A stretch of 33,684 nucleotides of DNA. It comes from Chlorobiota bacterium. Its GTDB lineage: Bacteria; Bacteroidota; Ignavibacteria; Ignavibacteriales; Melioribacteraceae. Positions within the stretch are counted from its first letter, which is position 1; each line of letters opens with the position of its first letter. The position numbers and the translations under genes were made by a program. Positions 23,597 to 26,758 of the stretch are shown here, in pieces. The stretch is from contig JAADIR010000122.1 of the NCBI GenBank assembly GCA_013151245.1, positions 1-33,684 of the forward strand, in the 5' to 3' direction. A model generated the notes under the pieces. The model was not told where the DNA came from, ran no database searches, and saw nothing but the letters and a program-made list of their open reading frames with translations.

Positions 23597-24835
23597 TTAT
23601 CCGCAGTTAAGTTTGTTGACAAATCTGTAACTTAAAAGAGTTAAAAGCGCAACGACAATGAACGCCGCCGTATATCCGGTAAAAAGGATTATGCTTCCCA
23701 ACACAAGCGGAATAATTGCGACCGCTAAGTTGAAAGATCCGTAAATTCCCGTATATAGCGCGCGGTTGGCGTCGTTCGTAATTTCAATAAAAACTCCGGA
23801 CGAGGCAATTCTGTAACCGCTGAACGATATTCCGTTTACAAAAAATAAAATTGCAAAGAAACGAAAATCTAAAAATCCCAAGAACAAAATCGCCAGAAGC
23901 GGTATTGTAGATTGAATAACGACAACCGCTTTCATCACGCCTTTAAATTTATAAAGTTTAACAACTTTAGCCCATAAAAGGTTCGAAATTATCATGCCGA
24001 TAATCTGCGCCGCCAAAAAATTTCCAATCCAATAAGGCGGAACGTCGAAGCCGCTTTTTATTGAAGCGGTGATAAACGGAATGGAAGTAAAGCCCAAACC
24101 GTAAAGGTTTATGGCGAAAAGCAGATTCTTCATATTCGAATCGGTTCTTAAAACGTAAGGAACTTTTTTCAGCTGCGACCAAACGCTTATCTTTTTTTGC
24201 GGCGCAAACGATTCGGTCTCCTTAAGGAAAAGGAATCCGACGGCTGCGATAAATAAAAACAGCGGGGCAAAGGTAAACATCAATTCATAATTTTTGGGAT
24301 ACTCAAATTGGCGGAGCAACTGTCTTACTATTAAAGCGGAAAGGAAAAGTCCGATTGAACTTACCAACTGTCTTCTAACAAAAAACTTCTTTCTTAATTC
24401 TCCTTTGATTGTTTTGCCGAGGATGTCCGTGTAAGGCACGCCGGCAAGCGCGCCGCTGATGGAAAAAGCGAACATCCATAAAAAGACGAGAACGATTATC
24501 AAGTTTGCCGAGATGCTTTTGTGAACAAAGAGCGTAACGCCGACTCCGGCAAGCGCGGCTACTCTGAGATAAATTCCCAGCAGAAGAAATTTTTTCTTTT
24601 TCGGTTTGCTTGAAATATAACCGGCAAAAAGAATTTGCGAAATAAGAGGGACGCCGACCATAATTGAAGTAAGAATTCCAACGTGAAGCTGAGTTCCTCC
24701 GGAAGAAAGAATTAGCGAGGGCATAACCGTATTTGTATCGGCGAACGCTTTTGCCAGCGCCAGCCAAAAAGCATGCCACAAGAAAAAACGGTAGTTGTTA
24801 TTTTTTTCTATTCTAATCAATTTTAACTTCTGCAA
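23597..24835 (-). CDS. MFS transporter
   Basis: About 12 hydrophobic segments across 412 aa with MFS-type layout. Confidence 0.85.
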   Translation of the reverse strand: MQKLKLIRIEKNNNYRFFLWHAFWLALAKAFADTNTVMPSLILSSGGTQLHVGILTSIMVGVPLISQILFAGYISSKPKKKKFLLLGIYLRVAALAGVGVTLFVHKSISANLIIVLVFLWMFAFSISGALAGVPYTDILGKTIKGELRKKFFVRRQLVSSIGLFLSALIVRQLLRQFEYPKNYELMFTFAPLFLFIAAVGFLFLKETESFAPQKKISVWSQLKKVPYVLRTDSNMKNLLFAINLYGLGFTSIPFITASIKSGFDVPPYWIGNFLAAQIIGMIISNLLWAKVVKLYKFKGVMKAVVVIQSTIPLLAILFLGFLDFRFFAILFFVNGISFSGYRIASSGVFIEITNDANRALYTGIYGSFNLAVAIIPLVLGSIILFTGYTAAFIVVALLTLLSYRFVNKLNCG

Positions 24836-24855: not shown

Positions 24856-26514
24856 TTATCGCGGTAATGCGCCGTAAAGAAACGTGTTGCCTTCGGGTCT
24901 TTGATTGTTTGATATCTTTTCGTCCGTAACCCGAATCAAATTGATCTCTTTTTTGTCAACGTAAGGAAGTTTTGGAATGGCGTGAATTCCGTTGAAATTT
25001 TCCCGTCCAAGTTTCAGAATATCGAACGATTCGTTTTTACCGACAAACCAGCAATGATAGACTTTGTTCGAGTCCAAGTCCGGCAAGTTGTCAACTTTAA
25101 GCAATCCTTTCCCTTCGGAAAAAGAGAGGAAAAGTTTTCCGGTTGCTTCGGAAGAATTTCCGCTTCCGACAAGATTAACAATTTCAACGTCTTTCTTTTT
25201 CAAGAAATCAATTATCGCTTTGTTTGCCGTTATAAATTCCGATTGTTTTCGCAAATCGCTTCTCAGGTTATTTAGCGAGTTTGTTAAACGCAGAACTTTT
25301 GTTTTCAAATCGCCCGTTTGCTGATAGAAATATACGGTTGAAATTCCCGCCGCAACAAGAAGAACAAACAACAAAATCAGCGCCCAAGGCGCCGACCGTT
25401 TTTCCATCATAAGTTCCGTTTGGGCGTCGTAATCAAGCGGAAGTTTTTCTTTTTGAATCTCTCTTTTCTCTTTCTCTTTCTCCGGTTTGGGTTTCGGTTT
25501 CGCTTCCGGTTTTGCTTTTTCCTTTTTCGGTTCGTTTCCTTTTTCTTCCGTTTTTTCAACTGCGGGCTGAGCCGGTTCTGTAATTTTTTCGGGAGGAGCG
25601 GTTTCTTTTTGAACGGCTTTCGGTTTGCTTTTCACGTCTTCGCTTATTGACGTCTCTTCTTTTTGCTTTAAGATTTTTTCTTTTATTTCGTCTTTAAAAC
25701 CCAACAGTTTTTTTGCAACGTTATCCTTTAGTTTCGGATCGGGAATGTCGAGTTCAAGAACTGTGGGAATAAGAGAAACGACATTTTGAAGTTCGCCCAG
25801 TTCTTTGCGCGGAAGATAACCTCCGCCTTTAACATATTTTTTAAACCGAATAAAATTTGCAACGTCCAGACAGCCGAGAGCGAAAGCCGAAATCATTTCG
25901 TAAACGTCGGGATCGTCTTCGGCGTTTAAGGCGCTTTCGGCAACGAGAAGAAAATCTTTTAAACCGTAAAGAGCCGTCATTACTTTATTTCTAACGGTTT
26001 CAATAGGAAGAGAGAGTTTGTCTTTAATTTCATCCAGGGAATAACCTTCGTAATATGCAAGGTGGATGACAAACTTTTGCGCGTCGGAAAGATGATCGAG
26101 ACCGGCTTCGATTTTATGCCGGACTCTCATCGCCGTGTGCAGGTCCATCGGCGCAATATCGCGCGGTAGAAAGGGCAGAATAAAATAGTCTTCGTATTCG
26201 TCGTCGTAGAAATCCAGAGCCTGATTTGTCGGTCTGCTTCTTCTAACGGAGTCAACGGCTCTGTTGCGGGCAAGAGAGATCAGCCAAACATAAGGGTTGC
26301 CGTTTGTAAAATCAAATTTGTCGATCTTCCGCCAAATAATCGTGAAAACTTCAACAAGAATATATTCGGCGGATTTTGTGTCCGGCGCAATTTTTTTTAC
26401 GAGCGTAAATAGAAGCGAAGAGTATCTGTTGTATAATTCTTCGAGCGCCAGGGAGTGGTACTTGGAAACCTCGCGTAATAAATCTAAATCCGATAATTCA
26501 GAATATTTGCTCAA
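24856..26514 (-). CDS. ECF-type sigma-70 factor fused to an RskA-like membrane anti-sigma region
   Basis: sigma2-like YILVEVFTIIWRKIDKFDFTNGNPYVWLISLARNRAVDSVRR; sigma4-like LDHLSDAQKFVIHLAYYEGYSLDEIKDKLSLPIETVRNKVMTALYGLKDFL; RskA-like EMISAFALGCLDVANFIRFKKYVKGGGYLPRKELGELQNVVSLIPTVLELDIPDPKLKDNV; K/E/P-rich linker; one TM segment (about aa 375-397); C-terminal RskA-like extracytoplasmic domain. Start is TTG. Confidence 0.85.
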   Translation of the reverse strand: MSKYSELSDLDLLREVSKYHSLALEELYNRYSSLLFTLVKKIAPDTKSAEYILVEVFTIIWRKIDKFDFTNGNPYVWLISLARNRAVDSVRRSRPTNQALDFYDDEYEDYFILPFLPRDIAPMDLHTAMRVRHKIEAGLDHLSDAQKFVIHLAYYEGYSLDEIKDKLSLPIETVRNKVMTALYGLKDFLLVAESALNAEDDPDVYEMISAFALGCLDVANFIRFKKYVKGGGYLPRKELGELQNVVSLIPTVLELDIPDPKLKDNVAKKLLGFKDEIKEKILKQKEETSISEDVKSKPKAVQKETAPPEKITEPAQPAVEKTEEKGNEPKKEKAKPEAKPKPKPEKEKEKREIQKEKLPLDYDAQTELMMEKRSAPWALILLFVLLVAAGISTVYFYQQTGDLKTKVLRLTNSLNNLRSDLRKQSEFITANKAIIDFLKKKDVEIVNLVGSGNSSEATGKLFLSFSEGKGLLKVDNLPDLDSNKVYHCWFVGKNESFDILKLGRENFNGIHAIPKLPYVDKKEINLIRVTDEKISNNQRPEGNTFLYGALPR

Positions 26515-26758
26515 ATTCTACAACGTTTAGTTAGTGAATGTTTTAAAAGTAACTTTAAGTACAATGAAAATCAATTGCACTAAAATAATAAAAATAAGTT
26601 TCACAATTTAACCGATAGGAAAGCGGAAGATGTTTAAAGTCCGATTTGCAAGGGTAATATTATTGTAGGAAAAGATAAAAAAGAATGTTAAGAAACTCCG
26701 AAGGTCGCGGACTCTGTGAGAGCGACATTATCCGTCGCCGTTATCGGCAATAACATCG

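Follow-up and report, generated by a model that had tools for sequence, protein, structure and literature searches.

On the minus strand of the window (the whole 33,684-nucleotide stretch of Melioribacteraceae DNA analysed), a single gene encodes an ECF sigma factor joined to an anti-sigma domain, a membrane segment and an outer domain (Table 1). The continuous 552-aa ORF of the original prediction is genuine, consisting of one uninterrupted frame of 552 residues plus stop, open throughout and with no internal stop codon. Its TTG start is supported by the same TTG at the same position in both nearest named relatives and by a promoter-like site that ends 30 nt upstream. Frame and domains together support the reading that sigma factor, RskA-like anti-sigma domain and transmembrane (TM) anchor are carried on one polypeptide. 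This fusion is known from one genome, fragmented into 303 contigs, and no second genome with the window's own fusion was found among the relatives compared.

Table 1. Features of the fused locus, with coordinates in the window and residue numbers (aa) of the fused protein.
Feature	Position	Strand	Basis
Bacteroidota-type housekeeping promoter-like site, TTG-N20-TAcTTT (TTGATTTTCATTGTACTTAAAGTTACTTTT)	26545..26574	(-)	Motif comparison, 88 loci
Fused sigma/anti-sigma gene	24856..26514	(-)	552 aa, TTG start, stop TAA at 24856-24858
Sigma2 (aa 27-94)	26233..26436	(-)	PF04542, E 1e-10
Sigma4 (aa 139-185)	25960..26100	(-)	PF04545, E 4e-8
Fusion junction, flexible loop (aa 190-201), in place of the relatives' stop/start	25912..25947	(-)	Sequence and model
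RskA-like four-helix anti-sigma domain, no zinc motif (aa 202-295)	25630..25911	(-)	Structure prediction and sequence
Disordered K/E/P-rich cytoplasmic linker (aa 296-376)	25387..25629	(-)	pLDDT <50 over 300-376
Transmembrane segment (aa 378-396)	25327..25383	(-)	Single hydrophobic segment and structure prediction
Helical stalk extending the TM helix (aa 397-438)	25201..25326	(-)	Structure prediction
RskA_C-like beta domain, predicted periplasmic (aa 443-548)	24871..25188	(-)	Pfam, structure prediction, relatives

The N-terminal 190 residues form an ECF sigma factor that contains sigma2 and sigma4 only, without sigma3 (TIGR02937, 51.5 bits, cut-off 42.9). Both Pfam matches, Sigma70_r2 at residues 27-94 (41.8 bits, cut-off 24) and Sigma70_r4 at residues 139-185 (33.1 bits, cut-off 24.1), fall within the stretch of about residues 20-190 in which ECF sigma2 and sigma4 had been placed. 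The best model match of the whole sigma part is SigK (residues 11-191, E 5e-29), and it also matches the PDB entry for SigK, 4nqw_A (E 4e-19), but the label 'SigK-type' does not hold in the strict sense, as the protein scores 101 bits against the curated cut-off of 226 of the SigK (ECF19) model PRK09646.

The RskA-like region expected at about residues 200-275 corresponds to four helices predicted with high confidence over residues 202-295, and CxxC is absent from residues 195-300. The K/E/P-rich linker proposed for about residues 285-365 is indeed predicted to be disordered (pLDDT <50 over 300-376), and the one TM proposed for residues 375-397 encloses the sole hydrophobic segment (378-396), itself contained in a single long predicted helix (residues 377-438). 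The proposed C-terminal RskA-like domain is a predicted beta domain, weakly RskA_C-like in this protein: RskA_C is matched by 28 of 32 aligned relatives (best E 1e-14), but the window protein itself scores 20.7 bits, below the Pfam cut-off of 29.4.

An AlphaFold model of residues 1-300 (pLDDT 89.7, pTM 0.87) was built on an alignment that took in relatives translated through their stop. Among PDB structures, its sigma part superposes best on SigK as bound by RskA (4nqw; TM 0.88, 2.0 A); ECF sigmas bound to RNA polymerase superpose poorly on the same part, at about 23-29 A. The model predicts that the attached anti-sigma domain would keep sigma2 and sigma4 in an inhibited arrangement, with the RskA domain between them.

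A match is carried by 138 of 164 genomes of the same order, and the nearest named relatives, two MAGs filed as Melioribacter roseus (Melioribacteraceae), are both two-gene. The expectation that sigma factor and RskA anti-sigma are normally separate, neighbouring genes is borne out: all 79 split relatives compared have two tightly coupled genes, with a median distance from sigma stop to anti-sigma start of 0 nt (range -26 to +12, one 116), an ATG (70) or GTG (9) start for the anti-sigma gene and a median ribosome-site (Shine-Dalgarno) energy of -6.8. At 16 split loci both genes lie in a single reading frame, with one stop codon and no more than a few other codons between them. Low-level readthrough at such loci, e.g. 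L003-L006, L008-L010 and L032-L036, would give a window-like fusion.

The original prediction held that a stop codon between the domains in relatives would indicate an assembly or strain-specific error, that is, a native locus of two genes and a fusion that is a sequence artefact. The stop is present in relatives, exactly one in-frame at the 16 loci; it is the error that does not follow. We generated 648 single substitutions, deletions and insertions over codons 181-207 and sought a start within -30 to +20 nt; none restores the sigma stop with an ATG or GTG in that range, and only three, all insertions, create a start, which is a TTG preceded by a weak ribosome site. A read error at the junction is thus ruled out as a single-base event. 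Since more than a stop has been lost, and no single-base change restores a stop and ATG/GTG like those of its kin, the window fusion is most likely genuine. An artefact is made conceivable by the single fragmented genome of 303 contigs and by the split state of every Melioribacteraceae-level relative, but we consider it very improbable: the 15-residue link between sigma and anti-sigma parts contains neither a start codon nor a Shine-Dalgarno, against the ATG/GTG starts and ribosome sites of the 79 split pairs, and other fused loci exist, some of which share the outer domain and some of which lack it. A related question is whether one frame gives two products, with the anti-sigma made additionally from an internal start. 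Codon 207 is an ATG whose position is conserved among relatives, and at the distant fused locus in G083 (L085) an internal ATG remains, with a ribosome-site energy of -6.5. The site upstream of ATG207 in the window, however, scores only -0.5, the linker has no other start, and initiation at residue 207 would cut the first anti-sigma helix (202-213), so that we give this reading hardly any weight.

In a tree of the sigma and anti-sigma domains, the window protein is nested among 40 split rows with a support of 99, and the window fusion is derived, by loss of the stop and start between two tightly coupled genes. It is not the only such fusion. Other sigma/RskA-like proteins in one frame occur at L052/L031 (G033), L082-L084 (g64), L085 (G083) and L125 (G317), the last in another family of the class and encoding 490 aa with a CxxC-bearing anti-sigma region and an RskA_C match of 27.5 bits. 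At L085 the internal ATG at the junction has a good ribosome site, and this locus may yield both products. A further, TonB-type form is found at L086 (G034), L087 (G078), L088 (G081, cut), L089 (G023) and L090 (G074), in the genera g24 and g34; within one frame of ~825-1000 codons it runs from an ECF sigma through an RskA-like domain, a long K/E/P linker and a TM to a TonB C-terminal domain, matched at E 5e-19 to 2e-19. The TonB-type fusion sits at the ancestral site beside alaS, as observed in G023 and G034, and G023, G034, G078 and G081 also have a separate sigma gene elsewhere in the genome, a split pair where checked.

On the same tree the fused state needs five changes, and the starred branches force at least four. 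One common origin for all fused forms is rejected (AU p = 0.00014). A single origin is not rejected for the window and G033 fusions (p = 0.56), although the G033 row is a very long one with identities of just 37%/24% to the window protein, nor for the g64 and TonB-type fusions (p = 0.38). A cautious count is therefore three origins within the order plus one outside (G317). A literature search found no papers on sigma/anti-sigma or sigma-TonB fusions in Ignavibacteria.

Among about 90 loci compared, alaS lies divergently upstream in 41 and a LiaF-like membrane gene lies convergently downstream in 52, followed in several by a PspC gene. This conserved neighbourhood of the split pair (loci L003-L130), with alaS, LiaF-like and PspC-domain genes, hints at a role in envelope stress. 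The window locus has no alaS, LiaF-like or PspC neighbours and no synteny with its relatives was found; its upstream neighbour is an outer-membrane-protein-like gene, and an MFS transporter gene follows downstream on its own strand. The MFS transporter gene (23597-24835, minus strand) starts 20 nt after the fused gene, and the two may form an operon. In relatives the sigma gene sits 145-255 nt upstream of alaS. At the alaS site of the window genome we looked for a split second copy, but the 336 nt between alaS and the contig end on its upstream side hold none. As the ancestral neighbours are absent from the window and no sigma gene precedes alaS within that stretch, the fused gene has apparently left its ancestral place beside alaS. 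A short repeated CCCGATTTATCCCGATGC-like motif, perhaps tied to the move, lies at positions 1-70 of L135 (G000:C303), close to the end of the contig on the upstream side of alaS.

Of 88 loci, 66 carry a promoter-like site similar to that of the fused gene at a distance of 14-43 nt from the start of the sigma gene, compared with 3.7 expected from shuffles. The site is of the kind described by the -33/-7 consensus of Bacteroidota housekeeping promoters. An autoregulatory ECF promoter was also considered; no shared ECF-like motif stood out, the housekeeping-type site being the one that did.

Taken together, we think it probable that the window gene encodes a constitutively made, membrane-tethered and self-inhibited ECF sigma factor that is activated by regulated proteolysis and trimming. 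The fused protein would be made constitutively and tethered at the inner membrane, where its anti-sigma domain would turn back and lodge between sigma2 and sigma4 in the manner of RskA on SigK and keep the sigma factor inactive, while the outer RskA_C-like domain would sense an envelope signal. By analogy with IutY, a substrate of the proteases Prc and RseP (PMC5411451), we infer that regulated proteolysis releases the sigma factor: the outer domain may be lost first, after which an RseP-like site-2 protease (S2P) would cut the TM helix. An RseP/S2P homologue, which the original prediction suggested looking for, is present in the window genome as an M50 protease carrying two PDZ domains (G000:C199), although M50 genes are near universal and were found in 14 of 14 control genomes. 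Because the cytoplasmic part of RskA by itself inhibits SigK (PMC7509140), cutting by S2P alone should leave the sigma factor blocked, so that a further step is needed. This extra step is most likely trimming, in which the soluble fragment would be degraded from the C-terminal, disordered linker back to the folded sigma4, where it is assumed to stop.

The main rival to trimming is activation without cutting, in which the outer domain or the TM relays a conformational change and the still tethered sigma factor binds RNA polymerase at the membrane. RskA is reported to activate SigK as well as to inhibit it, its membrane-extracellular part enhancing the activation (PMC7509140), and the flexible 80-residue linker would permit the necessary reach; yet IutY is cut, and with no precedent cited for transcription by a membrane-anchored ECF sigma we regard the uncut route as unlikely. 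The absence of the gene from the ancestral alaS neighbourhood could instead be the mark of a decaying or locked-off regulator, in which fusion has silenced the sigma factor for good and the gene is being lost. The outer domain would fit such decay, with an identity to kin of only about 30-34% across the anti-sigma half and with changes at conserved positions, e.g. YQLW to YHCW, but all 552 codons are open, identity to kin is 64% for the sigma part and 66% for the anti-sigma domain, the promoter-like site is kept, and in other genera fusions persist across species. We judge decay to be decidedly unlikely.

If proteolytic activation with trimming is correct, a 1:1 ratio of sigma factor to inhibitor would be built in and each molecule would fire once. 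Sigma/anti-sigma switches normally need two proteins made in balance, a need that the covalent form removes, and the fusion poses the question of how a sigma factor is freed from an inhibitor to which it is joined by about 12 residues. More broadly, and as a possibility rather than a probability, Ignavibacteriota may have repeatedly turned a two-gene switch into one piece with exchangeable outer domains (RskA_C-like, or TonB in two genera) that is activated by trimming to sigma4. The TonB outer domain of those two genera would physically tie outer-membrane energy transduction to a sigma factor, and the separate fusions, alongside split relatives as little as one stop codon apart, amount to a natural experiment on tethering.

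Covalent fusion of a sigma factor to an anti-sigma is already known, and the window protein is an RskA-type variant of it. The original prediction had noted that C-terminal extensions of ECF factors are not new, which agrees with both IutY and ECF48/52/53. The sigma/anti-sigma hybrid IutY (ECF243) of Pseudomonas putida (PMC5411451, PMC8999054) likewise unites an ECF sigma, a TM and an outer anti-sigma part within a single polypeptide and is activated by Prc and RseP. IutY, however, has 374 aa and belongs to the iron cell-surface-signalling systems, whereas the window protein joins a predicted cytoplasmic class I RskA-like domain of ~95 residues to a long linker predicted to be disordered and, in place of an IutY-like FecR/STN outer domain, has one that resembles RskA_C; Pfam gave no FecR match, and no TonB-dependent receptor gene was identified among the window neighbours scanned. 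ECF48, ECF52 (SCO4117) and ECF53 of Actinobacteria, for which proteolysis is predicted (PMC8999054), also carry an anti-sigma-like C-terminal extension with a TM within the sigma polypeptide, but their domain is a zinc finger (HxxxCxxC), whereas that of the window protein has no CxxC.

SigK/RskA of M. tuberculosis (ECF19, 4nqw) is the best sequence and fold match of the sigma part and shares the predicted inhibited arrangement, the zinc-free anti-sigma domain and the RskA_C-like end. There, however, RskA is encoded by a separate gene beside the sigma gene, whereas the window has one frame, and the window protein falls below the cut-offs of both the SigK and RskA_C models. The split alaS-linked pair of Ignavibacteriales provides the direct relatives of both halves, with the same promoter type, and differs in having two ORFs with a median gap of 0 nt beside alaS and LiaF/PspC-like membrane genes. 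The window protein is set apart by the pairing of a zinc-free, predicted class I RskA-like domain with an outer domain resembling RskA_C, by the lineage that carries it, and by the repeated appearance of such fusions beside split relatives that are one stop codon apart.
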